Of a stretch of DNA of 64,000 nt, positions 21,173 to 36,583 are shown piece by piece. A program made the position numbers and the translations under genes. The notes beneath the pieces were generated by a model. It was not told the DNA's origin. It saw only the letters and a list, made by a program, of their open reading frames with translations, and did not search any database. Source of the DNA: Flavivirga sp. 57AJ16 (GTDB lineage Bacteria > Bacteroidota > Bacteroidia > Flavobacteriales > Flavobacteriaceae); the NCBI RefSeq assembly GCF_028736925.1, contig NZ_JAQZAT010000022.1:1-64000 (forward strand). Reading direction: 5' to 3'. Position 1 is the first letter of the stretch. Each line of letters opens with the position of its first letter.

Positions 21173-21178
21173 ATCTGA
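20651..21178 (+). pseudogene. IS1182 family transposase, N-terminal fragment
   Basis: From ATG 20651 about 175 residues read YHQNQLSLLPPSYDDLVPAHHPVR, LRNLYSSRKIEQAL, WLSGQSKPDHNTINDFR and DIFIDGTKIEANANRYTFVWGK, the standard N-terminal domain of IS1182 transposases (usually near 450-500 residues). It ends within the IS982-type inverted repeat and lacks most of the catalytic domain. Confidence 0.85.
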
Positions 21179-22179
21179 GTTCGATTAAAAAACAGCCAAC
21201 TGATTCGTATGGCTAGTTTGATATTTTATTGAAGGTTTTTTAGGCAAGAAGCTGTATACTATAAGACCTGCTACAATATTTGAGATAAAGTTTGAGAAGC
21301 ACCTGTGTCTAGAATGCTCAATTAGGCAAATATTTTTAAGTTCATCATTAACGGTTTCTATTACTGAGCGTTTTCTAAGCAGTATTTTATCACTCATAGA
21401 CATTAAAGAGTTCTTCATATTGTTTTTATACTAGTGATTAAATGTACACCCTCCACGAAAAGCATTTGCATGAGTTCTTTTCCAATATAACCTTTATCAG
21501 CAAAAAGTTTTCCAAATATTTTATTAAGAAAACTTTTCTTTTTCAATGGTGTTCTATCATCAACATTTGCTTGTGTGATTGTAAAATTTAAGATTTCTCC
21601 TTTATCATTTATAACAATGTGAAGCTTAAAACGATGAAACCATCCCATTGTTGATTTTCCAGTAGTAGCAATACCTTTAAAGACTTTGTTGTTGGCTATT
21701 CGTTTAGACTTACAGACCCTAATTGGAGTAGAATCTACAAAGGAAATACCTGTACAATCTCCTAGCAACATGTTTTTAAAAACAAGGTCATTGGTATTAA
21801 GGTTTGCTGCATAAGCTCGGTAAATCTGTTATAAGAAACGGTATCTGGAAAATCATCCTTCATATGCTTTTGAACATAAAAAAGGTAGAAATGCTTGAAG
21901 GTTCTAAAACCACTTAATTGAAATAAAATGGTAATAGTAATTACTTCACTTGTACTCATAACTGAAGGGCGTTTTGCAGGATTGCCCAACATATGGTTTT
22001 CAACCAATTGGCTATATTCTTTACAGAACTCATCAACAATACAAAATATTTCAGTAATTTTAGAGTAGATTATCATAGATAGATTTTTAGATTAATAAAT
22101 TGAAATTCACTACTTTAATTTACTAAAAATCTATCTTTTTTACTACTTAAATCTTATCTAATATTAATCGAACTCAGGT
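21173..22179 (-). mobile_element. IS982 family insertion sequence, complete ends
   Basis: About 1007 bp bounded by inverted repeats CTGAGTTCGATTAA (21175-21188) and TTAATCGAACTCAG (22164-22177), with one mismatch when extended two bases outward. The transposase lies on the minus strand. No matching direct repeats flank the ends (CAACTTAAA left, TATACAGGT right), so the two sides did not come from one simple insertion. Confidence 0.85.
21185..22076 (-). pseudogene. IS982 family transposase, frameshifted twice
   Basis: Three consecutive frames together give a normal-length IS982 transposase (about 295 residues). Frame 1, 22076-21762, has FCKEYSQLVENHM and the N-terminal helices. Frame 2, 21771-21415, has GDCTGISFVDSTPIRVCKSKR and FADKGYIGKEL. 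Frame 3, 21418-21185, has RKRSVIETVNDELKNICLIEHSRHR. Both breaks need a -1 shift and both fall at A5 runs (TTTTTAAAAAC and ATAAAAACA on the coding strand). Inactivation by indels is the simplest reading; homopolymer sequencing error or programmed slippage at T-TTA-AAA are alternatives. Confidence 0.85.
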
Positions 22180-22665
22180 TATACAGGTTTATCTTATATG
22201 GATGTCATGAACCTCAACGAAGATAATATCGCTTTCGGTATTGATGGTGGCAAATGGATAATTATCAATAGACAAAAAACACATAACAAAGTAAAAATTC
22301 CGTTACTTCCAATTGCTGAAGAATTAATTGAGAAATATAAAGGCCATATTAAAACCAAGAGAACGAAAACCTTATTTCCAAATATTTCAAATCAGAAACT
22401 CAACTCATATTTAAAAGACGTAGCTTTTGTCTGCGGTATTAAAAAGAATCTTACATTTCACATGGCACGTCATACATTAGCAACAACAATAACCTTAAGT
22501 AATGGTGTACCAATAGAAACTGTATCAAAATTACTTGGACACTCAAAAATAGTTACTACTCAAATTTATGCCAAAGTAATTGAAAGAAAAGTAAGTGAAG
22601 ATATGAGGGTATTGGAAAATAAGTTACAAACTAACAATTCAAATAAATTAAAAATTAAAATTTAA
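22180..22665 (+). pseudogene. Tyrosine integrase, C-terminal part (relic A)
   Basis: Open frame from 22180, directly against the IS982 end, reading YTGLSYMDVMNL, then the catalytic HMARHT (His-x-x-Arg), LGHSKIVTTQIYAKV with the conserved LGH and the nucleophilic Tyr, ending about residue 160. This is the catalytic half of the integrases carried by Bacteroidota integrative elements. The N-terminal DNA-binding domain has been removed by the IS982 rearrangement. The first ATG in frame is 22198. Two shorter relics of the same 3' end occur at 31.7 and 35.4 kb. Confidence 0.85.
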
Positions 22666-22759
22666 AACCCTAGAATAAAATTAATTTTTCGATTAAAATA
22701 AATTTGGACTTTTCAACAAAGTTTGTTGAGAAATTTATGAAGAATTTTGTTCCATAAAA

Positions 22760-23980
22760 ATGAAAACAATGGAAGATAATTCAAAAAAAAAGAAATTAAA
22801 AACCAAGCCTAAAAAATCCATATTAAGAAGATTGATAAGGGGCTTAGCTTTAATAACAATCATTTTTCTTTTGCTTATCATTGGCTCTGCAGCCTATATA
22901 GCAATGAATGATAAAGCAGCAAAATCACCACTTTACACAGGACTTATTATTTCTGATGAATTTCAAATGCCTATAGACAATAAGTTTAACCATCATACAG
23001 AAGCTATGGATGTTGTAGAAGAACTAGACTTGAAAGGGAAAATAATTGTAATGACAGGCGGTCATAGTGGAACTGGCAGGGAAGCAACAAAAGCATTAAC
23101 AATTAGAGGAGCAACAGTAATTGCTTTAGCAAGGGATGTAGAATGGGCTAAAAGTAACTTGAAAGGACTACCAAATATTGAAATAGAATATTTGGATTTG
23201 TTAAAACCAAAATCCATAGAAGCATTCACCCAAAAGTTTTTAAAATCAAATCGTCCAATTCATGCGCTTATCAATAGTGCAGGAATATATAATATTCCAT
23301 TGACTAGAGACGAAAGAGGTTATGAGTTACAGTTTGCAACTAATGTTCTCGGACATTATGAATTAACAATGAAATTACTTCCAGCTTTGAAAAAAGCAAA
23401 CGGAGCTCGTATTGTCAATTTATCGTCTCGTGGGCATCGTTTAAGTAATGTTATAATTGATGATGTAAATTTTGAAAATGCAGAGTATGATGGAATGATA
23501 TCTTATGCGCAAAGCAAAACAGCATTAATTCTTTTATCTATCAAATTAGATAAACTTTTAAAGGATTCAAACATTAGAAGTTTTGCAGTACACCCTGGTC
23601 CAATCCCTTCATCAGATCTTTTTACTTCATCTCAAGTAGGTATTGCTTCCAATACTAAAGTTCAGTTCATGAAAGCTTCTGCAAAATTATCGAGGGCAAT
23701 CAACTATACATGGTTATTAAACTTTTTTAGAAATCCGGAAAATGTTGGAGATATATACAAAACAGTAAAAGAAGGCGGTGCTACAACAGCATGGGCAGCA
23801 GTCAGTCCTGAATTAAATGGAAAAGGAGGATTGTATTTAGAAGATTGTAATATAGCAAAGCTAGTTCCTAATGATAGTAATGCGCCTTTCGGTGTAAGAC
23901 AGTACGCCGTAGATATTGAATCTGCTAATAAGGTATTGGAGATTTGCGAAAAAATGACAGGTATAAAGTTTGAAAATTAA
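22760..23980 (+). CDS. Membrane-anchored SDR family NAD(P)-dependent oxidoreductase
   Basis: 406 residues. A lysine-rich start and one transmembrane helix (about 27-48) precede a classical short-chain dehydrogenase fold: TGGHSGTG cofactor loop (about 99-106), NSAG (about 172-175), and a YAQSK active-site Tyr/Lys. It is longer than typical SDRs (about 250) because of the N-terminal extension, and resembles retinol-dehydrogenase-like members. Substrate is unknown. It starts 95 bp after the integrase relic and is followed 3 bp later by a second NAD-dependent reductase, so the two are probably co-transcribed. Confidence 0.82.
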   Translation: MKTMEDNSKKKKLKTKPKKSILRRLIRGLALITIIFLLLIIGSAAYIAMNDKAAKSPLYTGLIISDEFQMPIDNKFNHHTEAMDVVEELDLKGKIIVMTGGHSGTGREATKALTIRGATVIALARDVEWAKSNLKGLPNIEIEYLDLLKPKSIEAFTQKFLKSNRPIHALINSAGIYNIPLTRDERGYELQFATNVLGHYELTMKLLPALKKANGARIVNLSSRGHRLSNVIIDDVNFENAEYDGMISYAQSKTALILLSIKLDKLLKDSNIRSFAVHPGPIPSSDLFTSSQVGIASNTKVQFMKASAKLSRAINYTWLLNFFRNPENVGDIYKTVKEGGATTAWAAVSPELNGKGGLYLEDCNIAKLVPNDSNAPFGVRQYAVDIESANKVLEICEKMTGIKFEN

Positions 23981-23983
23981 AAG

Positions 23984-25012
23984 ATGCAAAATATAGAAAC
24001 AGTTTTAGTAACTGGAGGAACAGGTTTTTTAGGAACTCATACAATTGTTCAGTTATTACAAAAGGGATATAATGTAAAAACGACAGTTCGTTCCTTAAAG
24101 AGAAAAAACGATGTGTTTGAAATGCTAAAAAATGGAGGGATAACATCATTTGATAATCTCGAATTCATTGAAGCCGATTTAACTAAAGATAAAAATTGGG
24201 ACGAGGCAGTAAAAGATTGTAAATATGTATTACACCTTGCTTCACCTTTTCCTTCTGGAGAACCAAAGGATGAAGACGAATTAATTATTCCTGCTAAAGA
24301 AGGAACGCTTCGAGCGCTAAAAGCTGCCCAAAAAGCAGGTGTAAAGCGTGTTGTAATGACCTCTTCTTTTGCTGCAATAGGCTACAGTATTAACCCTGAA
24401 AACCATATTTTTTCTGAACAAGATTGGACAGACCCTAATACAAATATTGGCGCATATATCAAATCAAAAACACTAGCAGAACAAGCTGCTTGGAATTTCA
24501 TTAAAACGGAAGCAAACCCGTTAGAATTAACCGTAATTAATCCAGTTGGAATATTTGGCCCAGTTTTAGGTAAAGACTTTGCAAGTTCAGTAGAACTGAT
24601 AGAGCAACTCATGAGTGGAAAAATATCTGCAACGCCAAAAGTTTATTTTGGTATTGTAGATGTTCGCGATGTCGCCAATATTCATATCAAAGCTATGATA
24701 AGTAAAGAGGCTAAAAATCAACGTTTTTTAGCATCTTCTGATGATACTACATCTTTGCCAGAAATTGCAAAAATTCTGCGTAAACAGCAAAATGAATATG
24801 CGAAAAAGATTACTAACAAAGTGCTTCCTAATTGGTTAGTGAAAATATTATCACATTTTAAACCTGAATTAAAATCTGTAGCTTCTCAAGTAGGGATTAT
24901 AAAAACTATTTCTAACGAAAAAGCAAAAACTATTTTAGGTTGGAAACCTCGAAATAAAGAAGTAATTATAGCAGATACTGCAGATAGTTTAATTAAATTT
25001 AGTGTTATATAA
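23984..25012 (+). CDS. NAD-dependent epimerase / dihydroflavonol reductase-like protein
   Basis: 342 residues of the extended SDR type. TGGTGFLGTHT near the N-terminus is the Rossmann cofactor loop, RVVMTSSFAAIGY follows, and YIKSKTLAEQAAW carries the catalytic Tyr-x-x-x-Lys. This is the pattern of aldehyde reductases related to dihydroflavonol 4-reductase. Starts 3 bp after the upstream SDR stop and ends 7 bp before an AraC regulator, so the three form one transcription unit. Confidence 0.85.
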   Translation: MQNIETVLVTGGTGFLGTHTIVQLLQKGYNVKTTVRSLKRKNDVFEMLKNGGITSFDNLEFIEADLTKDKNWDEAVKDCKYVLHLASPFPSGEPKDEDELIIPAKEGTLRALKAAQKAGVKRVVMTSSFAAIGYSINPENHIFSEQDWTDPNTNIGAYIKSKTLAEQAAWNFIKTEANPLELTVINPVGIFGPVLGKDFASSVELIEQLMSGKISATPKVYFGIVDVRDVANIHIKAMISKEAKNQRFLASSDDTTSLPEIAKILRKQQNEYAKKITNKVLPNWLVKILSHFKPELKSVASQVGIIKTISNEKAKTILGWKPRNKEVIIADTADSLIKFSVI

Positions 25013-25019
25013 ATAAACT

Positions 25020-25796
25020 ATGGATATAAAATCATGTTACATAGGACCTGAAATTTCACCTGAACAATTTATACCAGAACATTTGTTTTTGTTTTTAGCA
25101 AAAGGAATTTTAAATGGTTATGATGGCAGTAATTATATTACGATGAAGTCTGGCGATTATTGTATTGTTCGTAAAAACCATTTAGCGAGATATAACAAGC
25201 ATAAAGAGAACGATGAATTTGAAAAGGTAGTCGTGATTTTTGATGAAATATTTCTTAAACAATTTCTAGAAAAATACCAATTCAAAAAAGAAAAACATAA
25301 ACCTAAAGAAGCATTTATTTACTTAGATAAAAATGAACAAATACCAAGTTTTATAAACTCATTAATGCCCTATTATAATGGTATGGGGAAAATTGAAAAA
25401 GAAATTCAAGATACCAAGCGAGAAGAACTCTTACTTATCTTGTTAAAAAAGCAGCCAGAATTATATGAAGTGCTTTTTGATTTTGGAAAGCCCGAAAAAA
25501 TAAACTTGGAAGAATTCATGAACCAAAATTATAAATTCAATGTAGCTATTGAACGTTTTGCATATCTTACAGGTAGAAGTCTTTCGGCATTCAAAAGAGA
25601 TTTTAAACAAATATTTAACGATACACCTAATCGTTGGTTAATTCAAAAAAGGTTACAAGAAGCCCATTTCCTCATTGATAAAAAGAAACAAAAGCCATCC
25701 GAAATATATATTGATTTAGGTTTTGAAGATTTATCTCATTTTTCATTTGCTTTTAAAAAACAATTTGGAATGAGCCCAAAGAACTTATTACAATGA
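25020..25796 (+). CDS. AraC family transcriptional regulator
   Basis: 258 residues. An N-terminal cupin-like sensing part (GDYCIVRKNHLARYNKH) leads to a C-terminal AraC DNA-binding domain with two HTHs: AYLTGRSLSAFKRDFKQIF and the closing DLGFEDLSHFSFAFKKQFGMSPKNL. Seven bp after the epimerase-like gene, so it probably controls the oxidoreductase pair it is transcribed with. Inducer unknown. Confidence 0.85.
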   Translation: MDIKSCYIGPEISPEQFIPEHLFLFLAKGILNGYDGSNYITMKSGDYCIVRKNHLARYNKHKENDEFEKVVVIFDEIFLKQFLEKYQFKKEKHKPKEAFIYLDKNEQIPSFINSLMPYYNGMGKIEKEIQDTKREELLLILLKKQPELYEVLFDFGKPEKINLEEFMNQNYKFNVAIERFAYLTGRSLSAFKRDFKQIFNDTPNRWLIQKRLQEAHFLIDKKKQKPSEIYIDLGFEDLSHFSFAFKKQFGMSPKNLLQ

Positions 25797-25861
25797 ATAT
25801 TTAAACTTAATTTTTATTTGGTTAACTTTACTTGGGTGATATACCAAAGCATTTAATTTCA

Positions 25862-26452
25862 ATGAATTCAAAGAAAATACTATCTCAATACATTCAAAAT
25901 TTTGTTGATTTAAATGAAGACGAAGTGAATCAATTCGTCAGTTGTTTTGAGGAGATAAAAGTAAAAAAAAGACAATTGATTGTACAGCCTAATTTTATTG
26001 CTCATCATGTACATTTTGTGGTTAAAGGAGCTTTCAGATCGTATGTTGTTACAGACGAAGGTAACGACCATACTACTTCTTTTGCCATTGAAAATTGGTG
26101 GATTACCGATTATAATAGTTTTATATACCAACAACCAGCCACATCATTTGTAATTGCTCTTGAAGATAGTGTAATACTGCGCGTACATTACGAAAAGCAA
26201 AAGGAACTAAAACAAGTAAATCATAAGTTTGAAACTTTTTTTAGAATTATTGCAGAAAGAGGGTTGGCATTTTTTCAACGAAGAATTACAAATAACATAA
26301 CATTATCTGCAGAAAGGCGTTACGACCAATTTATGGGTAAATATTCTCATGTGGCTCGGCGGTTACCTCAATACGCTTTAGCATCCTTTTTAGGGATGAC
26401 ACCAGAGTTCTTATCCAAGATAAGAAACAACAAGGTTCAAAAGAAATCTTGA
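25862..26452 (+). CDS. Crp/Fnr family transcriptional regulator
   Basis: 196 residues from ATG 25862 (a TTG 30 bp earlier is less likely). An N-terminal cyclic-nucleotide-binding-like barrel (VVKGAFRSYVVTDEGNDHTTSF) is followed by a long helix and a C-terminal winged HTH (RRLPQYALASFLGMTPEFLSKIRNN). It lacks clustered cysteines and so is not an iron-sulfur Fnr. A 14-bp palindrome TTGAACTACTTCAA overlaps its stop, and a YceI gene follows 104 bp downstream. Confidence 0.82.
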   Translation: MNSKKILSQYIQNFVDLNEDEVNQFVSCFEEIKVKKRQLIVQPNFIAHHVHFVVKGAFRSYVVTDEGNDHTTSFAIENWWITDYNSFIYQQPATSFVIALEDSVILRVHYEKQKELKQVNHKFETFFRIIAERGLAFFQRRITNNITLSAERRYDQFMGKYSHVARRLPQYALASFLGMTPEFLSKIRNNKVQKKS

Positions 26453-26462
26453 ACTACTTCAA
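26449..26462. promoter_or_regulatory. Candidate Crp/Fnr site TTGAA-N4-TTCAA
   Basis: TTGAACTACTTCAA has the geometry of Crp/Fnr boxes (5-bp arms, 4-bp spacer). It overlaps the stop codon of a Crp/Fnr gene and lies about 95 bp before yceI. A second palindrome, GTCAATATTGAC at 26521-26532, is 25 bp before yceI. Confidence 0.45.
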
Positions 26463-26556
26463 CTATTTTTCCTAATCTACTTCATTGGAACTAGGGAACT
26501 ATTCATTGCACTTTTGTAAGGTCAATATTGACGTATAAAAATAAAACAAAAGTAAA

Positions 26557-27081
26557 ATGAAAACAGCAGTAAAAACAAAATGGAATTTAGATGTAGCACA
26601 TTCAGAAATAAGCTTTAAAGTTAAGCATATGATGATTTCTACAGTAACAGGACACTTCGAAGACTTCAGCGCAACGGCTGAAACAGAAAACGAAAATTTC
26701 GTAAATGCAGATTTTAAATTTGTAGCAAATGTTGATTCTATCAATACTAAAAATAGTGATAGAGATGCACACTTAAAATCAGATGACTTTTTCAATGCAG
26801 AAGAATATCCAGAATTGACTTTTAAATCAAAATCTTTTGATGGAGATAAATTAGTTGGAGATTTAACAATTAGAGATAAAACCAAAGAAATTGTATTAGA
26901 TGTAGATTTTAATGGATTAGCTGTAGACCCTTATGGCCAAACCAAAGCAGGTTTTGAAATCACTGGAAAAGTGAATAGAAAAGATTTCGATTTAACGTGG
27001 AGTGCGGTAACAGAAGCAGGAAGTATAGTGGTAAGTGATACTATTAAGCTTGTTGTTGACTTACAATTTGTTAAAGAATAG
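26557..27081 (+). CDS. YceI family protein
   Basis: 174 residues covering the whole YceI lipocalin-like fold: WNLDVAHSEISFKVKHMMISTVTGHFEDF at the start, SDRDAHLKSDDFFNAEEYPELTFKS in the middle and GFEITGKVNRKDFDLTW near the end. Family members bind isoprenoid-like lipids; no signal peptide is seen here, so this copy is probably cytoplasmic. It follows a Crp/Fnr gene with palindromic sites between and ends at a strong terminator. Confidence 0.9.
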   Translation: MKTAVKTKWNLDVAHSEISFKVKHMMISTVTGHFEDFSATAETENENFVNADFKFVANVDSINTKNSDRDAHLKSDDFFNAEEYPELTFKSKSFDGDKLVGDLTIRDKTKEIVLDVDFNGLAVDPYGQTKAGFEITGKVNRKDFDLTWSAVTEAGSIVVSDTIKLVVDLQFVKE

Positions 27082-27099
27082 TTTTGGCTAGTAATATTT

Positions 27100-27135
27100 A
27101 TTGAGGCTGATAAAATTGTTTCAGCCTCAATTTTC
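27100..27135 (+). terminator. Rho-independent terminator after yceI
   Basis: ATTGAGGCTGA and TCAGCCTCAAT form a perfect 11-bp stem with a 10-base loop, followed by TTTTC. It lies 19 bp after the YceI stop. Confidence 0.85.
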
Positions 27136-27178
27136 GGCAAAGTAAATAAGAACATAGAACATTGTAAAAAATAATGAA

Positions 27179-27643
27179 ATGAAAAATCAAACAAAATTAA
27201 AAGGCGGTTTAAACACGCTAGCATTATATAATGTTGCTTTTGTAGTTTCTAATATTGAAGAATCAATAAAATGGTATAATAATATATTAGGGTTTAAATT
27301 ATTAATGAAACAAACTATTCCTGTAGAAAAAGGTGAGTTACAAATGGCTTTTATGCAAGGATCAGGTATGAAAATTGAAATGCTTCAAAATTCAGAAGGC
27401 CAATTAATTGAAGCAATTATTAATGATTCAAAAACAGACGCCCCACCATCAGTAATAGGTGGTAAAGCTTTAGTATTTCAAGTAGAAGATTTAAAAGTAG
27501 CTACTAAAGAACTTGAAAATAAAGGTGTGGAGTTTTTATGGAAAGAAAGATATTTAGCAGGAGATGTGCTATTTTGTTCTATGGTATTAGACCCTGATGG
27601 GAATCGTATAAATATTTTTCAATCAAATACAGTAGCTCAATAA
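27179..27643 (+). CDS. VOC family protein (glyoxalase/dioxygenase fold)
   Basis: 154 residues with the paired beta-alpha-beta modules of the VOC superfamily: YNVAFVVSNIEESIKWYNNILGFKL, then a second half ending VLDPDGNRINIFQ. Expected metal ligands are partly present (the C-terminal Glu position is Asn in NRINIF), so catalytic ability is uncertain. Stands alone between two terminators. Confidence 0.8.
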   Translation: MKNQTKLKGGLNTLALYNVAFVVSNIEESIKWYNNILGFKLLMKQTIPVEKGELQMAFMQGSGMKIEMLQNSEGQLIEAIINDSKTDAPPSVIGGKALVFQVEDLKVATKELENKGVEFLWKERYLAGDVLFCSMVLDPDGNRINIFQSNTVAQ

Positions 27644-27720
27644 TAGAAGATAACACTTTATTGGACAATTCATTTAACATCTAGTTTCTGTTAAATGATT
27701 TATCAAAAATAAGAATTGTA

Positions 27721-27778
27721 GTCAATTGAAAATTGAAGTCATAATGATGATTTCATATTCAATTGGCTTTGTTTTTTT
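27721..27778 (+). terminator. Long-stem terminator
   Basis: GTCAATTGAA...GAAGTCAT pairs with ATGATTTC...TTCAATTGGC around an AATG loop, with a GTTTTTTT tract after it. It closes the VOC gene transcript 80 bp after its stop. Confidence 0.7.
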
Positions 27779-27854
27779 ATGAATATCTCATAAAAAATAC
27801 TATAACCATTTATACTAAAATACATTATAACATATTTTATCATAGTTAAATTTT

Positions 27855-27862
27855 TAACTTTG
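27855..27862 (+). promoter_or_regulatory. Bacteroidota -7 element TAACTTTG
   Basis: Matches the TAnnTTTG consensus and ends 7 bp before the ATG at 27870, so the transcript probably has little or no leader. The -33 element is not obvious. Confidence 0.5.
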
Positions 27863-27869
27863 TAGTATC

Positions 27870-28448
27870 ATGTTAGAAGTTTTCAAGAAATATATAAATG
27901 ATAAAACATCCTTGCCAGAGGAAGACTTAAATGAGATACTTTCTTATGCTATCATTAAAAAACTGCGTAGAAGACAATTTCTTTTACAAGAAGGTGATAT
28001 TTGGCGTTATAATGCTTTTATCTGTAGTGGTTTTGTTAGAACATATTCTGTAGATGACAAAGGAACAGAACACATCATGAATTTTTCACCTGAAAACTAT
28101 TGGACAGGAGATAGAGAAAGTCTTACCAATGAAACACCTTCAAAGTTTAATATAGAAGCTCTTGAAAACACCGAAGTATTGCTTATTAAAAAGCAAGATT
28201 TTGAAATGCTTTGCAAAAAAATACCTCTATTTAATAATTTAATTAATAATATATTACACAAGAGCTTTCTCACTTCACAAAGTAGGATCCATTCTAGCAT
28301 AAGCCAATCATCTGAAGACAAATACAACAATTTTGTTTTAAAATTTCCAACAATAGCTAATCGTGTACCTCAGCACATGATAGCTTCTTACATAGGGATT
28401 TCTCCCGAAACCTTAAGCCGTATAAGATCTCAAGCAACTAAAAAGTAA
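27870..28448 (+). CDS. Crp/Fnr family transcriptional regulator
   Basis: 192 residues: cyclic-nucleotide-binding-like barrel (LRRRQFLLQEGDIWRYNAFICSGFVRTYSVDDKGTEH) and a C-terminal HTH (RVPQHMIASYIGISPETLSRIRSQ). Paralogous to the protein at 25862-26452. An almost leaderless transcript is predicted. Ten nucleotides after its ORF comes the palindrome TTGACATTTGTCAA and then an SDR gene 100 bp on, so the SDR is the likely target. Confidence 0.85.
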   Translation: MLEVFKKYINDKTSLPEEDLNEILSYAIIKKLRRRQFLLQEGDIWRYNAFICSGFVRTYSVDDKGTEHIMNFSPENYWTGDRESLTNETPSKFNIEALENTEVLLIKKQDFEMLCKKIPLFNNLINNILHKSFLTSQSRIHSSISQSSEDKYNNFVLKFPTIANRVPQHMIASYIGISPETLSRIRSQATKK

Positions 28449-28453
28449 AAACG

Positions 28454-28467
28454 TTGACATTTGTCAA
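28454..28467. promoter_or_regulatory. Candidate Crp/Fnr site TTGAC-N4-GTCAA
   Basis: TTGACATTTGTCAA is a perfect 14-bp palindrome with the 5-4-5 layout of Fnr/Crp boxes (Fnr consensus TTGAT-N4-ATCAA). It lies 6 bp after the regulator stop and 83 bp before the SDR gene, with further GTCAA and TTGAC half sites at about 28486 and 28504. Confidence 0.55.
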
Positions 28468-28549
28468 GAGTTTTTTGCTTTAAATGTCAATGGAAAAAAG
28501 ACCTTGACGGTGGCATCTTTGTATCATTAATAATTTAAAAATTTATAAA

Positions 28550-29407
28550 ATGAGCAAAGTAATTTTTATCACAGGAACAAGTTCAGGTTTTGGTAAATTA
28601 ACAACCATCACCTTATCAAAAGCAGGTCATACCATAATCGCAGGTATGAGAGGAACAACAGGCAAAAACAAAGATGTTGCCGAAGAACTATCTGCATTAC
28701 ACAATGTAGAGGTAGTTGAAATTGACGTAACCAACGACAATTCAGTATCAAATGCATTTCAACAAACACTTTCTAAATACGGAAAAATTGATGTATTGGT
28801 TAACAATGCAGGGGTTTCAGGCTTTGGACTATTAGAAGCCACTTCTCTAGAACAAATACGTAAAATGTTTGAGGTCAATTTTTATGGGGTTATCAGAGGG
28901 TATCAAGCCGTTTTACCAAGTATGCGTAAAGAAAAAAGTGGTCTGATAATTAATTTGACATCAGGAGCAAGTGGGCACACCCTACCTTTTATGATTCCTT
29001 ATTTGGCTTCAAAATTTGGTGTGGAAACTATTACTGAAGGTTTACAAGCAGAGTTGGCACAATTCAATATTGAAAATGTCACCATTCAGCCCGGGGTTTA
29101 TCCAACTGAAATGAACAATGGTAGTAAAACAGGAATTAATGCAGATAAACCAGAAGTAGCAACAGATTACGATCCAGTAGCAACAGATATGTTTAATGCT
29201 ATAGGTGGTGGATTGTTTGGTAAAATGAAAGAATTCGACATGAATCCACAAACGATTGCTGATGGAATTTTAAACTTGGTAAGCATGCAAAATGGAACTA
29301 GACCGTTGCGTTTTCCCCTGGATGCTATTGCACAAGGCACAGACATTGAATTTATCAATGCTAGGGCAGAGATAAAAGAAAAGTGGTTGGCTAAATATAG
29401 CGGATAA
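28550..29407 (+). CDS. SDR family oxidoreductase
   Basis: 285 residues of classical short-chain dehydrogenase: TGTSSGFGK cofactor loop, NNAGVSGFG, and catalytic Tyr-x-x-x-Lys in PYLASKFG. Downstream of a Crp/Fnr regulator with a palindromic site between them. Physiological substrate unknown. A hairpin (ACGCTTAT/ATAAGCGT, 29420-29447) separates it from the nitroreductase gene. Confidence 0.88.
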   Translation: MSKVIFITGTSSGFGKLTTITLSKAGHTIIAGMRGTTGKNKDVAEELSALHNVEVVEIDVTNDNSVSNAFQQTLSKYGKIDVLVNNAGVSGFGLLEATSLEQIRKMFEVNFYGVIRGYQAVLPSMRKEKSGLIINLTSGASGHTLPFMIPYLASKFGVETITEGLQAELAQFNIENVTIQPGVYPTEMNNGSKTGINADKPEVATDYDPVATDMFNAIGGGLFGKMKEFDMNPQTIADGILNLVSMQNGTRPLRFPLDAIAQGTDIEFINARAEIKEKWLAKYSG

Positions 29408-29419
29408 GTTTAATCTAAT

Positions 29420-29447
29420 ACGCTTATTCTAACCCTAGGATAAGCGT
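29420..29447 (+). terminator. Hairpin between SDR and nitroreductase genes
   Basis: ACGCTTAT and ATAAGCGT form an 8-bp perfect stem around a 12-base loop, with no clear T-tract. It may reduce rather than stop transcription into the next gene, which starts 18 bp later. Confidence 0.45.
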
Positions 29448-29464
29448 TAAAATCCTTAACGAAA

Positions 29465-30097
29465 ATGGAAACTATAGATGCAATGAAGTGGCGTTATGCT
29501 GCTAAAAGAATGTCTGGTAAGAAAATACCAGAACATAAAATCAATAAAATAATTGAGGCCATGCACTTGGCACCATCAGGAATAGGCTTACAACCCTATG
29601 AGCTTATTATCATTACTAATAATGAGTTGAAAAATAAAATACAGCCCATAGCATTTAATCAGATGCAAATTGTTGAATGTTCGCATCTAATTGTTTTTGC
29701 AGCTTGGGATACCTATTCTAATAAAAGAATAGATAAGGTTTTTGACCATTTAGCAAAAGAGCGTAATCTGCCTTTAGAAAAAACTTCAAGTCAACGTAAT
29801 TTTTCGAAAAGTTTTTTTGGTGCAATGAGTGAAGAAAATAACTTTCACCATGCTGCTAAACAAGCGCATATAGCATTAGGTATTGCAACACTTACAGCTG
29901 CACTTGAAGGCATAGATGCTACCCCTATGGAAGGTTTTGACCCAATAGCTTTAGATGCTTTACTTGGACTCAAAGAAAAAGGATTAAAAAGCTCTATGCT
30001 TTTAGCTTTAGGATATAGAAATGATAGCAACGATTGGAATTTAAACCTTAAAAAAGTGAGAAAACCGATGTCGGAATTTATAACCGAAATAAAATAA
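29465..30097 (+). CDS. Nitroreductase family NAD(P)H-dependent oxidoreductase
   Basis: 210 residues with the nitroreductase fold: MKWRYAAKRMSGKKIPEHKI at the start, MHLAPSGIGLQPYELIII (FMN contact region), and a C-terminal EKGLKSSMLLALGYR. Such flavoproteins reduce nitro compounds, quinones or other electrophiles using FMN. The stop is 6 bp before the VOC-NTF2 gene, so they are probably co-transcribed. Confidence 0.87.
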   Translation: METIDAMKWRYAAKRMSGKKIPEHKINKIIEAMHLAPSGIGLQPYELIIITNNELKNKIQPIAFNQMQIVECSHLIVFAAWDTYSNKRIDKVFDHLAKERNLPLEKTSSQRNFSKSFFGAMSEENNFHHAAKQAHIALGIATLTAALEGIDATPMEGFDPIALDALLGLKEKGLKSSMLLALGYRNDSNDWNLNLKKVRKPMSEFITEIK

Positions 30098-30103
30098 GCA
30101 ATT

Positions 30104-31030
30104 ATGCAAACAAAAATAGTAATTATAGCCATTTGGATGGTTACAGCGTTCAACTTCCAATCATTTGCACAAAGTCTTAACGTGGTAGGAATGGATCATA
30201 TAGGTGTAAATGTTCCAAATATAGACGAAGCATTAGTCTTTTTTGAAGTATTGGGTTTTAAAAAAGTGTCAGAACTTGACCTAATAGAGTTAGATGACAA
30301 TTGGAAACAACGCTATAAAATCCGAAGAGATGCTACAATTGAGAGAATCGTAACACTTCGAGCAAGTAACGGAAGCAAAATTGAATTGTTCCAATACAAA
30401 TCTGCAGAAAGTAATGAGGAAATGCCTTTTGGTGATGATCTTGCATGGTATCATATAGCATTTTATACGGATGATATTGATAAAAGCGTAGCTACCCTAA
30501 AATCGAAAGGAATAACGTTTCTGGATGACCCAATTTTAAATAGTAGTGGTGAAACATGGGCATATTTTAAAGCACCATGGGGATTACAACTGGAATTGAT
30601 TTCTTATCCCAATGAAAAAGGAAATCCTAAAGAAGAAAGTTTAACACTAAAAAAACAAACAAAAATGAGTAAAATAGAAATAGAAGCTTTGGCAAAAAAG
30701 CATTTGGATATATGGACAGAAAAAAATGCGAAAAAGCGAAATAAGTACATTAAAGAAGTATACACTGAAGGTGTGGAAATAGTTGACCCGTTTTTTGTAA
30801 TAAATGGCCATTCAAAATTGAATGATTTCATTGAAGGCTTACAAAAAAAGCATCCTGGTTTTGATTTTAGTTTAGCCCAACCAATCGAGAGCCATAACAA
30901 TATAGCTAGGTTATTCTGGCAGTTTGGTACAACATCTAAGCCAGATGAAATAACAGGGCAGGACATATTTGTCATTGAAAACGGAAAAATAAAGTCACTT
31001 TATATTTTCATTGATGGATTAAAAAATTAA
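30104..31030 (+). CDS. Exported VOC domain fused to an NTF2/SnoaL-like domain
   Basis: 308 residues in three parts: a signal peptide (ends SFAQS, about residue 24), a VOC domain (about 25-170; GMDHIGVNVPNIDEALVFFEVLGF ... FKAPWGLQLELISYP), and an NTF2-like domain (about 187-308; EALAKKHLDIWTEKNAKKRNKYIKEVYTEGVEIVDPFF). The second part begins with MSKIEIEALAKKH and would look like a complete start of an independent gene, so a recent fusion of two genes is likely. Function unknown; the context is detoxification-type oxidoreductases. Confidence 0.75.
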   Translation: MQTKIVIIAIWMVTAFNFQSFAQSLNVVGMDHIGVNVPNIDEALVFFEVLGFKKVSELDLIELDDNWKQRYKIRRDATIERIVTLRASNGSKIELFQYKSAESNEEMPFGDDLAWYHIAFYTDDIDKSVATLKSKGITFLDDPILNSSGETWAYFKAPWGLQLELISYPNEKGNPKEESLTLKKQTKMSKIEIEALAKKHLDIWTEKNAKKRNKYIKEVYTEGVEIVDPFFVINGHSKLNDFIEGLQKKHPGFDFSLAQPIESHNNIARLFWQFGTTSKPDEITGQDIFVIENGKIKSLYIFIDGLKN

Positions 31031-31062
31031 AATCAAATTATAAATAATAAAAAAATAAAATC

Positions 31063-31593
31063 ATGAAAACAATTTCAATAATTTCAAATCTTCTTTTTGG
31101 AGAGCGCAAAAGCAATAATTTTGCATCAATAGGTTTATTAATAATACGTTTAATTGCAGGTTTTGGTTTAGTATTGCACGGATTGCCAAAACTTATGACA
31201 CCAATGAGTTTTGCGGGAGATGCCTTCCCTGGAGTTCTTCAGCTATTGGCAGTCATCAGCGAAGTAGGTGGTGGTATCGCATTAATACTTGGCATTTTTG
31301 TTCCATTAGCATCATTGGGATCATCTATAACTATGCTTGTAGGGATACTTCTGTTCCACGTGCCTTTTAAAGATCCCATTTATCGAATTACCGTAAAACT
31401 TTCATCTGAAGGTGATGGTGATCCATTTTTTGGTTTCCCATTGTGGTTCGCCAAAGCAGATGGGCATAGTATTGGGGGATCTGGTTCGGCAGAACTTGCA
31501 TTGCTTTACTTTATTATAGCATTGTGTTTGTTCTTTACAGGAGGAGGTCATTATTCCCTAGATCATAAATTAAGGCAAGAAAAAAGTAAATAA
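31063..31593 (+). CDS. DoxX family membrane protein
   Basis: 176 residues with four predicted membrane segments; RLIAGFGLVLHGLPKLM at the start and VISEVGGGIALILGIFVPLASLGSSITM mark the DoxX family. These small membrane proteins are often found with oxidoreductases and stress genes; the reaction is not settled. Follows the VOC-NTF2 gene by 32 bp and ends at a hairpin. Confidence 0.87.
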   Translation: MKTISIISNLLFGERKSNNFASIGLLIIRLIAGFGLVLHGLPKLMTPMSFAGDAFPGVLQLLAVISEVGGGIALILGIFVPLASLGSSITMLVGILLFHVPFKDPIYRITVKLSSEGDGDPFFGFPLWFAKADGHSIGGSGSAELALLYFIIALCLFFTGGGHYSLDHKLRQEKSK

Positions 31594-31605
31594 ATTTTAT
31601 ATAGT

Positions 31606-31629
31606 AAGGCAACGGGTTTTCGTTGTCTT
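31606..31629 (+). terminator. Terminator-like hairpin after doxX
   Basis: AAGGCAACG and CGTTGTCTT pair (with one G-T wobble) around GGTTTT, 13 bp after the DoxX stop, followed by GCTTTTAT. Confidence 0.6.
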
Positions 31630-31684
31630 GCTTTTATAATCCTTTAATAAATCTACTATCATATCGTTTTCATGAAAGAGCTTT

Positions 31685-31849
31685 TCCATTAAAAGCAGTA
31701 TCAAAACTGCTTCGTCATAGTAAGATAATAATCACTCAAATTTATGCTAAAGTATAGAGGGAAAAATAAGTGAAGATATTAGTAAACTTAAAGCAAAATT
31801 AGAATCAGATAAATTACAAAGCACGCAAAATGCAAGTTTAACTAGTTAG
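31685..31849 (+). pseudogene. Tyrosine integrase 3'-end relic B
   Basis: Translating in pieces gives AVSKLLRHSKIIITQIYAKV, a stop/frameshift, then KISEDISKLKAKLES to a TAG at 31849. This matches the last 60-odd residues of relic A (ETVSKLLGHSKIVTTQIYAKV...KVSEDMRVLENKL), with the LGH motif altered to LRH and a 1-2 base indel after the Tyr region. No start and no catalytic Arg remain. Confidence 0.75.
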
Positions 31850-32030
31850 ATAAATCAAATTCTATAAATTTGACAACCCTAAATATTTCATACTAAACTA
31901 AATTGAAGAGGACTAAAAAGTCATTTTAGAAAAAAAGTATTTATTCATGTAGTATTAGGTTTTTATCAATCTTAATAGACGAAAAATCTAGTATAATATA
32001 TAAATTAAAACATTATTTTGGTAGTTCAAT

Positions 32031-32954
32031 ATGACTTCAAAAAGCATAATAGTAAAAGATCTTGCCGAATTGTATGAATCAATTGGTTTACCATCAGATG
32101 CGGTAGACTCTTCTTCTGGCTTTACAATTCACTATTTACAAGATACGTTTAAAAAATTTCCATATAAATCCATACCATTTAGACCCAATTATTTTAGTTT
32201 TTTATTTGTAAAAAACGCCTATGGTAAATATACGATTGATGATAAAGGTTTTGATATAAACCCAAGAACAGTCTATTTTACAAATCCTGGGAATTATAGA
32301 GTTTTTGAATGGCAAAAAATAACAAATACCTGCTTAATTACGTTCAATGAATCCTATCTAAAAGAACATGTGCATGCCGATACTTATAATCATTTTTCAT
32401 TTCTTTTAACAGAAACAGTAGAACCAAGAACATTATCTATTGAACAGTTTGAAGATATAGAAAATTTGTATAAGTTAATACATAAAGAATATTTATCAAA
32501 TACACCTTTTAAAAACGAAGTGATTGGGAATTTAATGGTTGTTTTATTGTTGAAAATAAAAGAATACTTTTTTCAAAATTACAATCCTATTTATGAAGGT
32601 AACAGAAGTTCTCAAATTGTAAAAACGTTTAAACGAAACCTAGAAGATCATTTTAGAAATTTGGTGAAAGGAACAGAAGAAAAACAATTAAGAGTTCAAG
32701 ATTATGCAAATCTGCAATTTCTTCATGTTAATTATTTATCAACTGTAATTAGCAGTAAAACAGGAAAATCAATAAGTACTTGGATTTCTGAAAAAACAAT
32801 CACAGAAGCAAAAGTAATGCTTCTAAATCAGAAATTATCAATAAAAGAAATTGCCAATAAACTCGGCTTTTTAGAGTCTTCACATTTCAGTAATTATTTC
32901 AAAAAACACACTTCTGAAAGTCCTGCAAAATACCGAAAAACCTATTTCAATTAG
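32031..32954 (+). CDS. AraC family transcriptional regulator
   Basis: 307 residues: an N-terminal cupin-like domain (KYTIDDKGFDINPRTVYFTNPGNYRVFEW) and a C-terminal AraC HTH pair (VNYLSTVISSKTGKSISTWI, then IANKLGFLESSHFSNYFKKHTSESPAKYRK). It precedes an SDR gene by about 100 bp on the same strand, so that SDR and the genes after it are likely targets. Confidence 0.87.
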   Translation: MTSKSIIVKDLAELYESIGLPSDAVDSSSGFTIHYLQDTFKKFPYKSIPFRPNYFSFLFVKNAYGKYTIDDKGFDINPRTVYFTNPGNYRVFEWQKITNTCLITFNESYLKEHVHADTYNHFSFLLTETVEPRTLSIEQFEDIENLYKLIHKEYLSNTPFKNEVIGNLMVVLLLKIKEYFFQNYNPIYEGNRSSQIVKTFKRNLEDHFRNLVKGTEEKQLRVQDYANLQFLHVNYLSTVISSKTGKSISTWISEKTITEAKVMLLNQKLSIKEIANKLGFLESSHFSNYFKKHTSESPAKYRKTYFN

Positions 32955-33051
32955 ATAATATTAGAAATTTACATCTTTTACTGTTATACGTGTACGCTTC
33001 TTAAACCCCTCTTATAAGACATTTGTATTATTAATTTAAAGCAAAGAATTT

Positions 33052-33792
33052 ATGAGTAATTCAAATCAAAAAGTAGCCTTAATAACAGGTTCATCAAGAG
33101 GAATAGGTGCAGAAATTGCACAACAATTTGCAAAATCAGGTACTAAAGTAGTAGTAAACTACAGTGGGAGTAAAGATAGTGCAGACAAAGTAGTTCAATC
33201 TATTATTACTAATGGAGGAGAAGCGATTGGAATACAAGCAGATGTAAGTAAAACAACAGATGTAAGTCGTTTGTTTGACGAAGCCATAGCACATTTTGGT
33301 AGAATTGATATTCTAGTAAACAATGCAGGCTTAATGCTTAATTCTTTCATTAAGGATGCCACAGACGATTTATTTGAGAAACAAATGAACGTTAATGTAA
33401 AAGGTGTGTTTAATACACTTCGAGAAGCATCGACCAAATTAGCAGATAACGGAAGTATTATCAACTTTTCATCTACCGTTACACGTACCATTTTCCCAAC
33501 GTATGGTATTTATTCGGCTACCAAAGCCGCAGTAGAGCAAATGAGTAAAGTATTTGCCAAAGAAGTAGGAGACAGAGGTATTAACGTAAACTGTGTATTA
33601 CCTGGGCCAACAAGTACAGATTTGTTTTTAAAAGGGAAATCTGAAGAATTAATCGCTCAAATAGCAAGTACAAACGCATTCAAACGCTTGGGAACACCAG
33701 AAGATATTGCAAGAATAGTTACTTTTTTAGCAAGTGATGATGCAAAATGGATTTCTGCCCAAAGTATTGGTGCAAATGGTGGTATGGCATAA
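33052..33792 (+). CDS. SDR family oxidoreductase
   Basis: 246 residues, standard length for the family. TGSSRGIG cofactor loop, NNAGLM, catalytic YSATKAA, and a C-terminal SIGANGGMA typical of FabG-like enzymes. First of a tight set with the DUF1097 gene (16 bp) and a second SDR (overlap 4 bp), behind an AraC regulator. Confidence 0.9.
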   Translation: MSNSNQKVALITGSSRGIGAEIAQQFAKSGTKVVVNYSGSKDSADKVVQSIITNGGEAIGIQADVSKTTDVSRLFDEAIAHFGRIDILVNNAGLMLNSFIKDATDDLFEKQMNVNVKGVFNTLREASTKLADNGSIINFSSTVTRTIFPTYGIYSATKAAVEQMSKVFAKEVGDRGINVNCVLPGPTSTDLFLKGKSEELIAQIASTNAFKRLGTPEDIARIVTFLASDDAKWISAQSIGANGGMA

Positions 33793-33808
33793 CTAAAGAC
33801 AAATCATT

Positions 33809-34285
33809 ATGAAAGAATTTTTAAAAGCAATAACAATGGGTGCTTGCGGTGCACTCGCAGTTTTGATTTCGTTTTCATTGCATTGGCCAACTTGGGTGCT
33901 TTTTATAGCATGGTTAAGTTATTACATATTTGGAAAATCATTAAAAACTGCAATCTATTCATTAATACCTATTACAACAGGCATAATTATGGGTATTATC
34001 ATACAAACATTAGGTGGCACTTTAATTAGTTACCTTGGAGCAATTGGTTTTCCTTTAGCAGTATTTTTATTGATTAGTTCGTTAACGTATCTGTCAAAAA
34101 TAAAATTGTTAAGCAATATTCCAGCATGGTTTGTAGGGTTAATCATTTTCTTTGGTGTTCATCCAGCATTAGAATTCAAACCAGTATTAAGTCTATTTAT
34201 TCCAATAATTGCTGGACTCTTCTTTGCCTTTACAAATGACGCCATATCAGGTATAATTTCAAAAAATAAAAAAAACAAAAAATGA
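33809..34285 (+). CDS. DUF1097 family membrane protein
   Basis: 158 residues, almost entirely hydrophobic, with four to five membrane segments; the start (ITMGACGALAVLISFSLHWPTWVLFIAW) and FGVHPALEFKP fit the DUF1097 family. Function of the family is not established. Its stop overlaps the start of the next SDR (ATGA), so the three genes are one operon. Confidence 0.72.
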   Translation: MKEFLKAITMGACGALAVLISFSLHWPTWVLFIAWLSYYIFGKSLKTAIYSLIPITTGIIMGIIIQTLGGTLISYLGAIGFPLAVFLLISSLTYLSKIKLLSNIPAWFVGLIIFFGVHPALEFKPVLSLFIPIIAGLFFAFTNDAISGIISKNKKNKK

Positions 34286-35034
34286 ATAGTTTAAAAAATA
34301 AAGTAGCAATAATAACAGGTTCTAGTAGAGGGCTGGGAAAAGCAATTGCAGAAAGGTATGCAGCTTTAGGTGCAGATATAGTACTAAATTATTCTAGTAA
34401 TAAAACAGCTGCAGAAGAGGTAGAAGGAACTATAAAAGCGATGGGAGCTCAAGTTATTTCTGTACAAGCAGATGTAAGTAAAGTAGCAGATATTGAACGC
34501 CTTTTTAGTGAAGCAAAACGGAAATTTGGCAAAGTAGATATAGTTGTTGCTAATGCAGGAATTGAAATGGTTGAAACCCCAGTAGTCGATTTTACCGAAG
34601 AGCAATTTGATAAATTATTTTCAATCAATACCAAAGGCGCATATTTTACAATGCAACAAGCCGCTAAACATATAGAAGACAATGGTCGCATAATTTACAT
34701 CGCATCTAGCACAACTGTTTTTCCTGTTCCAGGAATGGCTGTATATGGAGGAAGCAAATCCACACCAAGATATATGGTAGATGTACTTTCAAAAGAAATC
34801 GGTTATAGAGGAGTTACTGTTAATTCAATTATTCCTTTTGCGGTAGACCATTCAGGTATTTTTACCGAAGAAGATAGTTATCCAGAATTGCGAAAATCAT
34901 TAATAGATAGTTGCCCTATGCAAAGGCTTGCAGAAATTGAAGATGTGGCAAATGTTGCAGAGTTTTTTGCAAGTGATATGTCTTCTTTTGTAAACGGACA
35001 ACATTTGTTACTCAACGGTGGAGCTACACAATAA
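34282..35034 (+). CDS. SDR family oxidoreductase
   Basis: 250 residues: TGSSRGLGK loop, VVANAGIEM (in place of the usual NNAG), catalytic YGGSKST, and QHLLLNGGATQ at the end. Related to the SDR at 33052-33792 and in the same operon. Followed by a truncated NTF2-like gene 6 bp later. Substrate unknown. Confidence 0.9.
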   Translation: MNSLKNKVAIITGSSRGLGKAIAERYAALGADIVLNYSSNKTAAEEVEGTIKAMGAQVISVQADVSKVADIERLFSEAKRKFGKVDIVVANAGIEMVETPVVDFTEEQFDKLFSINTKGAYFTMQQAAKHIEDNGRIIYIASSTTVFPVPGMAVYGGSKSTPRYMVDVLSKEIGYRGVTVNSIIPFAVDHSGIFTEEDSYPELRKSLIDSCPMQRLAEIEDVANVAEFFASDMSSFVNGQHLLLNGGATQ

Positions 35035-35040
35035 ATCGTT

Positions 35041-35346
35041 ATGAAAATAAACAATTTAATAATCCTAATAATGTTCGCATGCATGAATACTGCATGCGGA
35101 CAAATAGGAAATCACGAACATAAAGAGATGAAAAACATCAACTATGATAAAATTATCAATGCTGTTGTAAAGTATGCAATAGAAACTTGGCAAAAAGGAG
35201 ATTCTGAAAAATGGCTTTCTCTATTTACAAAGGATGTTGCTTTATATGATGATGGAAGTTCTAGAGATTTTCTAAAATTTAGCACACAAGCAATTGAAAA
35301 CGATTTTTTTACAAGCATTGATAAAATTGAAGATATTACATACTGA
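35041..35346 (+). pseudogene. NTF2/SnoaL-like exported protein, truncated
   Basis: 101 residues: a lipoprotein-type signal (MFACMNTACGQ) and the first half of an NTF2-like fold (VVKYAIETWQKGDSEKWLSLFTKDVALYDDGSSRDF ... FFTSIDKIEDI). Family members are normally 140-160 residues long. The frame ends immediately at the start of an integrase relic, so recombination removed the rest. Confidence 0.7.
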
Positions 35347-35348
35347 AG

Positions 35349-35565
35349 GCGTTTTTAATAATGGCACTGTATATTTAAAAGATGTTGCTTTTGTATGTGT
35401 GGCATTAAAAAGAACCTCACATTCCATATGGCGCGACATACTTTTGCAACCACTCAAATTTACGCAAGAGTAATTGAACGTAAAGTTAGTGATGATATGA
35501 AAGCTTTAAAACTTGTACTAAAAAAAGAAAGCAGTAAATCAGAAAAGAATATAATCAATCATTAG
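35349..35565 (+). pseudogene. Tyrosine integrase 3'-end relic C
   Basis: Reads YLKDVAFVC, a one-base frameshift, then GIKKNLTFHMARHTFATTQIYARVIERKVSDDM to TAG at 35563-35565. Compared with relic A (22180-22665) about 26 codons between the ATT of HTLATT and TTQIYAKV are missing, including the LGH motif, probably by slippage between ACA/ACT-rich repeats. Non-functional. Confidence 0.82.
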
Positions 35566-35698: not shown

Positions 35699-35725
35699 TG
35701 TCACGTTTTTGTTTTGCTATTTATC
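35699..35725 (+). promoter_or_regulatory. ECF41-type promoter (TGTCACG-N16-TATC)
   Basis: TGTCACG at 35699-35705 and TATC at 35722-35725 with exactly 16 bp between, close to the published ECF41 target TGTCACA-N16-CGTC. It lies just before the ECF41 gene, as expected for autoregulation. The same element with the same spacing is at 36591. Confidence 0.7.
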
Positions 35726-35752
35726 ATTCATACACTATTAAAAAATGAAATT

Positions 35753-36583
35753 TTGAAAGATTACCAAAACAAACTATTTCCCTATGCCTATAATATTTTA
35801 GGGAGTTCTGATGATGCAAAAGATGCCATACAAGATGTATTGGTGAGATACCATGCTGCTCAAAATTTACAAATTGAAAACGTAATAGGCTATTTAATTA
35901 AGTCTGTAATAAACCAATCTATTAACCTGAAAAAAAGGAAGCAAAAAATAACACACGAAAAAATATGGCTTCCTGAACCTCTTGCTACAGAAAAGGCAGA
36001 TGACACTATAAACAGTAAGGAAATAATTTCCTATTCTATGTTAGTACTCCTAGAAAAATTAACTCCAAAAGAAAGAGCTGTATTTATTTTAAAACAAGCT
36101 TTTGAATATTCCCATAAAGATATTGCTGAAGTTATCGATTCCACAATCGAGAACTCTAGAAAGCTTTTAAGTAGGGCTAATACAAAGTTGGCTATTTCCA
36201 ATAATAGCATTACTCAAAAAAACAGCCATACTCCCAATGCATATATGAAGCAATATATTGACGTTATTAAAAATGGTGATGTAAAACGTTTAGAAAAAAT
36301 GCTCTCAAAAGATATTTTGCTTATGGCTGATGGTGGCGGAAAAATAAGTGTTGTAAGGGAATTGACAATAGGTAAATCTGCAACCCTAAAATTACTTTTT
36401 TATGTATTTCAAACGTATCAAGAATTACAGACTATTAAAATAACAGAAATAAACCATCAACCAGCTTTATTGTTTTTCCAAGATAATAAACTAGTAAACT
36501 GCCAGGTTTTTGAATTCGAAGAAAACCAGATTAGGCAAATATTCTCTATACTAGTTCCTAACAAACTTAAATCAATAATTTAA
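35753..36583 (+). CDS. ECF41-group RNA polymerase sigma factor with SnoaL-like C-terminal extension
   Basis: About 276 residues. Sigma-2 region QDVLVRYHAA, linker WLPEPL, sigma-4 region LTPKERAVFILKQAFEYSHKDIAEV, then an NTF2/SnoaL-like C-terminal extension with DGGGK. The WLPEP linker and DGGGK motif are hallmarks of ECF41, which has no separate anti-sigma and is controlled by its own C-terminal domain. The start is uncertain: the frame is open to TTG 35714, but that lies inside the predicted promoter, so TTG 35753 is preferred; the nearby ATG 35745 is out of frame. Known ECF41 targets are neighbouring oxidoreductase-type genes. Confidence 0.85.
   Translation: MKDYQNKLFPYAYNILGSSDDAKDAIQDVLVRYHAAQNLQIENVIGYLIKSVINQSINLKKRKQKITHEKIWLPEPLATEKADDTINSKEIISYSMLVLLEKLTPKERAVFILKQAFEYSHKDIAEVIDSTIENSRKLLSRANTKLAISNNSITQKNSHTPNAYMKQYIDVIKNGDVKRLEKMLSKDILLMADGGGKISVVRELTIGKSATLKLLFYVFQTYQELQTIKITEINHQPALLFFQDNKLVNCQVFEFEENQIRQIFSILVPNKLKSII

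Follow-up and report, generated by a model that had tools for sequence, protein, structure and literature searches.

Genomic islands related to ICESt1 evolve, reportedly according to Pavlovic et al. in 2004, by deletion and tandem accretion. RteC has a role in the Bacteroides elements of the CTnDOT/NBU type. Here we analyse a stretch of 64,000 nucleotides from Flavivirga sp. 57AJ16 (contig NZ_JAQZAT010000022.1, positions 1 to 64,000; hereafter the window), in which three 3' relics of a tyrosine integrase (R1, R2 and R3) are spaced among accessory genes. We propose that positions 22174-45266 are very likely a decayed composite genomic island, made by fusions wherever these took place. The process is a known one and the locus an instructive example of it, whose three broken integrase ends are best read as the scars of joined, partly deleted tRNA-site islands.

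What the ICESt1-related elements share with this region is that they integrate site-specifically next to an element already present, decay and form composites, but the window has no attachment (att) site at its sutures, the marks being 3' fragments of integrase genes that abut pieces of backbone or cargo. Tandem integration, decay to cis-mobilizable elements (CIMEs) and accretion are described in PMC5704250, which also cites work on island evolution 'by deletion and tandem accretion'. Like a CIME as presented there, the window island is decayed, without a working integrase and part of an accretion; a CIME keeps attL and attR, whereas neither was found here when the 17-bp core described below was sought with at most 3 mismatches. 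According to PMC6764341, a 10K genomic island lies at an Arg-tRNA in Riemerella anatipestifer; it is likewise flavobacterial, with a tyrosine integrase adjacent to and downstream of the tRNA and direct repeats at both ends. That island differs in being a single element, at a tRNA-Arg and with another repeat, and the likeness considered here is one of layout.

The features on which the argument depends are listed below; they were compared with an island of Algibacter lectus, with locus L068 of the integrase family, with genome G161 and with contig C3 of the same Flavivirga genome.

21415..22161, minus strand: remnant of an insertion sequence (IS) of the DDE_Tnp_1_3 type, two open reading frames (ORFs) and a preceding stretch (Pfam PF13612 at 21415-21771)
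22174..22665, plus strand: R1, 3' part of a tRNA-Pro-type tyrosine recombinase (PF00589, homology)
22760..27081, plus strand: block 1, with short-chain dehydrogenase, epimerase, AraC, Crp-type regulator and YceI (72-78% DNA identity to A. lectus, Pfam)
27179..31593, plus strand: further cargo, with glyoxalase, Crp-type regulator, short-chain dehydrogenase, nitroreductase, glyoxalase-SnoaL and DoxX (Pfam)
31674..31864, plus strand: R2 relic and post-stop sequence as at the C3 integrase (homology)
31882..31972, plus strand: DUF4405 shred (DNA E 4e-16, tblastn E 4e-6)
32031..35034, plus strand: block 2, with AraC, short-chain dehydrogenase, DUF1097 and short-chain dehydrogenase (G161 order, Pfam)
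35041..35337, plus strand: NTF2/SnoaL-like gene, 5' fragment (open frame, weak SnoaL_2 match, E 0.07)
35315..35391, plus strand: rteC fragment (tblastn 35.4 bits, DNA E 4e-8)
35381..35560, plus strand: R3, internally deleted 3' relic of the integrase, abutting rteC (homology)
36647..36820, plus strand: Flavodoxin_2 cargo gene, 5' fragment (PF02525, E 1e-7)
36804..37196, plus strand: 3' part of the backbone ATPase, which is DnaC/DnaI-like, initial 97 codons gone (85% to L068)
41355..45266, no strand assigned: island right part (41355-41453, 41564-42148 and 43837-45266), including a DUF5675 gene (A. lectus DNA, Pfam)

The preliminary description had reported the same integrase 3' end three times on the plus strand. 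All three copies are indeed there, R1 at 22174-22665, R2 at about 31674-31849 and R3 at about 35381-35560, although the HMARHT string that was said to identify them is incomplete in R2. It had also placed oxidoreductase and regulator genes between the relics, and the Pfam matches agree (short-chain dehydrogenases, epimerase, nitroreductase, glyoxalase, YceI, DoxX, AraC- and Crp-type regulators); most of these genes have open frames. It had recommended looking for shared end points; the relics start at different integrase residues, about 255 for R1, 363-367 for R2 and 340 for R3. Contrary to that description, the last relic does not directly cut the NTF2-like gene, because the rteC fragment (about 35315-35391) intervenes.

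R1 carries the tyrosine recombinase domain PF00589. Its homology begins at 22174, which corresponds to residue 255 in the intact, 421-residue integrase of genome G001 (78% identity), and its frame is open through 22665, the initial 254 codons being gone. Pieces of the same genome match the IS remnant upstream of R1 at 21216-21951 and 22038-22161; under looser scoring the match extends to 22192, and the border with R1 is therefore only approximate. R2, whose homology spans 31674-31808, is frameshifted, contains stop codons and begins past the HMARHT box (protein E 6.2e-6 in a one-genome search; DNA E 5e-29 against the C3 integrase). R3 consists of two pieces, 35392-35454 (protein E 1.1e-5) and 35446-35538 (protein E 3.2e-4), which match other integrases at the DNA level with E 5e-15 and 2e-17, respectively; an internal deletion fuses ...HMARHTFATT with QIYARV.... 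Further relics occur on C3 at 34.1, 33.4 and 28.2 kb, with a broken full-length copy at 65.2 kb. The 6-kb block between integrase 3' relics on that contig (C3:28180-34352, locus L034) contains, by eye, ArsR-, AraC- and MarR-like regulators, SRPBCC and DoxX-like genes, together with two genes encoding a RibD_C protein and an Arr-like ADP-ribosyltransferase (Pfam Arr-ms E 3e-47), respectively.

By sequence comparison R1 falls within a family of integrases at tRNA sites; its own 5' part, att site and tRNA are not in the window. We sampled this family as the best 80 of 243 stretches encoding R1 relatives, each kept as a named locus. In 65 of the 80 loci the integrase is preceded within 600 bp by a tRNA gene of the same strand, with a spacing of mostly 193-217 bp. 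Among the 20 loci at least 74% identical to R1, 16 have a tRNA-Pro(tgg) 195-208 bp before the integrase; of the remaining four, L069 and L107 have the att core only, L070 is cut by the contig edge with the core present, and the L064 integrase is truncated. In the other 60 loci the tRNA is Arg (25), Asp (11), Lys (8) or Ser (5), except that 9 have no tRNA within 600 bp, 1 is at a contig edge and 1 lacks an integrase start. The 17-bp 3' end of the tRNA-Pro, AATCCTGCCACCCCGAC, constitutes the att core and is located before the integrase start. It is found again without a tRNA at 55.3 kb on C3, 204 bp before an integrase 5' fragment, and its final 11 bp (GCCACCCCGAC) precede the A. lectus integrase. 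Judged from these positions, the placement is that expected of a tRNA-targeting island integrase, with a putative second island in tandem on C3 and in A. lectus. The literature searched yielded no account of this tRNA-Pro family, which is not proof of absence.

The preliminary description had recommended searching relatives for its gene blocks bordered by the integrase, and for block 1 this succeeded: an intact integrase of the same family (420 residues) adjoins it in A. lectus, in an island of 25.7 kb between CACCCCGAC att cores at al 38166 and 63872. The gene order of this homologous intact island is integrase, dehydrogenase, epimerase, a 214-residue gene, AraC, Crp and YceI, followed further on by rteC, the helix-turn-helix (HTH) gene and the ATPase, and then by a DUF5675-like gene. 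Its dehydrogenase, epimerase, AraC and Crp-type gene are 76%, 79%, 79% and 81% identical to those of block 1; the YceI after the Crp-type gene is 41% identical and a second, more distal YceI 78%. The single window YceI (26542-27121) matches both, and the A. lectus genes between the two (pirin-, azoreductase-, isochorismatase- and amidohydrolase-like, named by eye) have no match in the window, a pattern such as might be left after recombination between two YceI genes.

Ten stretches of the window match the A. lectus island at the DNA level. Two of them are R2 and R3 against its integrase, and the other eight are collinear: 22178-25016, 24991-27080, 26542-27121, 35314-35388 (rteC), 36803-37196, 41355-41453, 41564-42148 and 43837-45266. 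The first is 78% identical and unbroken over the integrase/dehydrogenase border, and the right part from 41355 to 45266 is 70-72% identical, its A. lectus counterpart continuing to the att core. The window island thus spans R1 to about 45266, past the three relics, and the relic region would be part of a larger composite island because 22178-45266 matches the A. lectus island in order. Most of 27122-36802 is extra or replaced relative to that island, and the further cargo at 27179-31593 has no DNA match in it; the window appears to hold foreign inserts within a larger decayed island. Backbone fragments follow one another as integrase, rteC and ATPase, with the right end then as in A. lectus, and the HTH gene and the small gene of the backbone have no match in the window. 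The likeness to elements of the CTnDOT/NBU type is that the cargo is followed by rteC and by a small HTH gene, as seen in L068 (Pfam RteC E 1e-74, and HTH_17); the difference is that inspection by eye of the ORFs in the A. lectus island recognised no conjugation gene, conjugation and relaxase models not having been run.

The window contains junctions of mixed origin. At R3, positions 35315-35391 encode LHTEGVFNNGTVYLKDVA, which matches RteC of L068 with 69% identity over 26 residues (tblastn); its 35.4 bits compare with a maximum of 27.3 bits in 200 shuffled windows, and the DNA match has E 4e-8. In L068 and A. lectus, rteC is positioned behind the cargo. In the window it is abutted upstream by the truncated NTF2-like gene, whose SnoaL_2 match is below cut-off, and runs on into the integrase, with 18 nt identical to L068 rteC and 12 nt to the integrase of R1; the 10 nt at the join, ATTTAAAAGA, are common to L068 rteC, the integrase of R1 and R3. 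At 36647-36820, the start of the Flavodoxin_2 gene runs into the DnaC-like ATPase at its codon 98. The ATPase piece is 79% identical in DNA to A. lectus, and the NCBIfam matches of the L068 ATPase protein are below their cut-offs. Downstream of R2, the sequence after the stop is also present at the C3 integrase and is followed by the DUF4405 shred (80% over 92 nt; 26 residues by tblastn). The order on C3 is integrase, Crp-type regulator, Flavodoxin_2, DUF4405 and rteC fragment. R2 is therefore not simply the head of block 2, since what comes after it is a DUF4405 shred from another cargo set.

These junctions bear on the idea of one island acquired once, in which R2 and R3 would be internal duplications of its own integrase end, shifted with cargo by IS activity. 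The string LKDVAFVCGIKKN is common to R1 and R3, and transposase remnants lie beside R1, as this idea would have it. However, the LKDVA part of R3 fits rteC equally, R2 is closer to the C3 integrase (122 bits) than to R1 (77 bits) and has C3-type downstream sequence, and no transposase was recognised in ORFs of at least 80 residues near R2 and R3, no dedicated IS search having been run. We consider such duplications very unlikely.

We propose instead that tandem islands were joined by deletion. The intact order would be tRNA/att, integrase, variable cargo, rteC (in some cases), HTH_17 gene, small gene, DnaC-like ATPase, further genes and att. Site-specific integration at the tRNA end would first stack several islands in tandem; deletions would then fuse one island's cargo or rteC to its neighbour's integrase, or a cargo gene to the ATPase. 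Such deletions would drop backbone, att sites and integrase 5' parts, while passenger genes stay. A deletion from cargo, rteC or backbone that ends within the next integrase would place the surviving 3' end of that integrase in front of the cargo that follows, and integrase 3' fragments could persist because the integrase is the first gene of each island with the cargo directly behind it. We infer from these arrangements that the junctions arose by deletion within a tandem and in this chromosome, and likewise the order of events.

The preliminary description had spoken of an accreting array, and as to accretion we agree with it. Tandem accretion is visible at the tRNA-Pro on C3 of the same genome, where the integrase is followed 10 kb on by the 17-bp att core, 204 bp before the 5' fragment of a second integrase; no att core between islands is left in the window. 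The att core of A. lectus is preceded, at a distance of about 12.5 kb, by a 5'-truncated integrase relic.

The array had been ascribed to gene blocks inserted next to an integrase end, and a first alternative is thus that cargo was inserted time and again at the 3' end of the integrase, which would act as a targeted attachment or cassette site. It would account for three 3' ends on the same strand with accessory genes after each, and the C3 3' relics likewise bracket small accessory genes. In the Flavivirga genome itself, only the 3' side is present in 5 of 10 integrase places (R1 and R3 included) and only the 5' side in 3 of 10; one copy, on contig C52, was entered as 3'-side only although small 5' pieces are present. 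Over the 12 genomes of the genus this excess disappears. Irrespective of contig edges, and leaving out R2 and the C3 fragment at 33.4 kb, which are below the search cut-off, we counted 57 integrase places: 32 with both ends, 16 without the 3' end (12 reduced to the 5' side, 4 retaining part of the 3' half), 8 without the 5' end (7 reduced to the 3' side, 1 partial) and 1 internal piece. These figures drop C-half matches below 45% identity and leave N-half matches uncut; with an equal 45% cut on both halves (hand count), 6 rather than 12 places have only the 5' side, and the comparison becomes 10 without the 3' end against 8 without the 5' end. No rule of 3' end retention is seen, and the numbers are small. 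The att core sits at the tRNA, upstream of the integrase, the relics start at unequal residues, and R3 starts inside the join with rteC. Unlike that of an integron, the A. lectus integrase scores 49 bits against the integron-integrase model, for a cut-off of 265. The integrase 3' end was thus rejected as a special insertion site, and targeted insertion there appears hardly credible. A search for repeat families of at least 30 nt recurring between cargo genes found none in 18-40 kb, no attC model having been run.

For block 2, the association with an integrase in relatives was borne out in one genome and not in another. G161 has the four block 2 genes in the same order (68-88% identity); an integrase remnant precedes them by 1.9 kb and a tRNA-Pro(TGG) by about 19 kb. 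G247 has AraC and both dehydrogenases of block 2, with a DUF1097 match of 60%, and no integrase of the family was found there in 35 kb. The block 1 dehydrogenase (at E 1e-60) and the block 2 AraC (at E 1e-50) have no match in any of the genus's 11 further genomes. Among 299 genomes of the family, this one included and with at most 6 or 7 candidates scored per genome, the dehydrogenase occurs in 2 (E 1e-70), AraC in 7 (E 1e-60) and the glyoxalase-SnoaL gene in 2 (E 1e-40). The blocks look acquired, because the dehydrogenase and AraC lack matches in the genus mates and have few in the family. Redox cargo as a trait of the integrase family was considered and rejected: 104 Pfam families were matched, none in more than 4 members (83 of 97 ORFs, 18 loci, two of which carry near-identical cargo).

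This distribution would also suit a variant of our explanation, in which separate islands recombined in a different host or element to give the fusions, and the resulting composite decayed after its import. Two block genes lack matches in the 11 genus mates, and the donors are of mixed appearance. On the other hand, import alone leaves the loss of att sites here unexplained. Although inseparable from fusion in place on these data, the variant seems to us possible but somewhat unlikely.

Several observations weigh against fusion of tandem tRNA-site islands. The rteC piece is short (26 residues) and alone below the reach of the Pfam RteC model. None of the genomes examined has the R2 or R3 junction in its ancestral, un-deleted state. 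The integrase part of R3, in fragments of less than 120 nt, is fitted by tRNA-Arg-type integrases at least as well as by tRNA-Pro-type ones, and the donors may not all have been users of one site. The 17-bp core has no match in the window, and no tRNA gene was found on its contig, so that the original integration site is not shown. Finally, no integrase of the family was found in the 35 kb looked at around the block 2 genes of G247.

Two further features were annotated, one beside the island and one within it.

20636..21178, plus strand: transposase fragment, DUF772 (Pfam PF05598)
35714..36583, plus strand: gene for an extracytoplasmic function (ECF) sigma factor, nearest to the models SigX4 and SigJ but under their cut-offs (Pfam, NCBIfam)

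Direct repeats of 33 nt (79%), at 35693-35725 and 36585-36617, flank the ECF sigma gene and each contain TGTCACG. They resemble, we presume, the promoter motif of ECF41-type sigma factors; one may be the gene's own promoter and the other that of the truncated flavodoxin-like gene. Behind the ATPase, a 30-nt repeat (93%) of its 3' region (37152-37181 and 37747-37776) flanks a 169-residue ORF (37238-37747), and this spot is a possible insertion slot. A HipA gene and others lie downstream of this ORF, and two HipA_C genes stand inside the island on opposite strands (38123-39394 and 42090-43028). The right-flank gene, which we take to be FecR-like, has many paralogues, and the empty site is not traceable from the right flank.

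The locus offers a base-level view of tandem islands becoming one composite block while passenger genes remain open, and it belongs to a large flavobacterial integrase family tied to particular tRNA genes at near-constant spacing. A truncated integrase joined to backbone fragments could serve as a simple marker for spotting such fusions. One could also imagine that deletion fusion of rteC or ATPase to the next integrase is, in this widespread flavobacterial island family, a recurrent route to larger multi-cargo islands, still mobile through the first integrase and the last att, although we regard this generalisation as rather unlikely. If it were true, integrase 3' fragments inside islands would be a readable count of fusion events.

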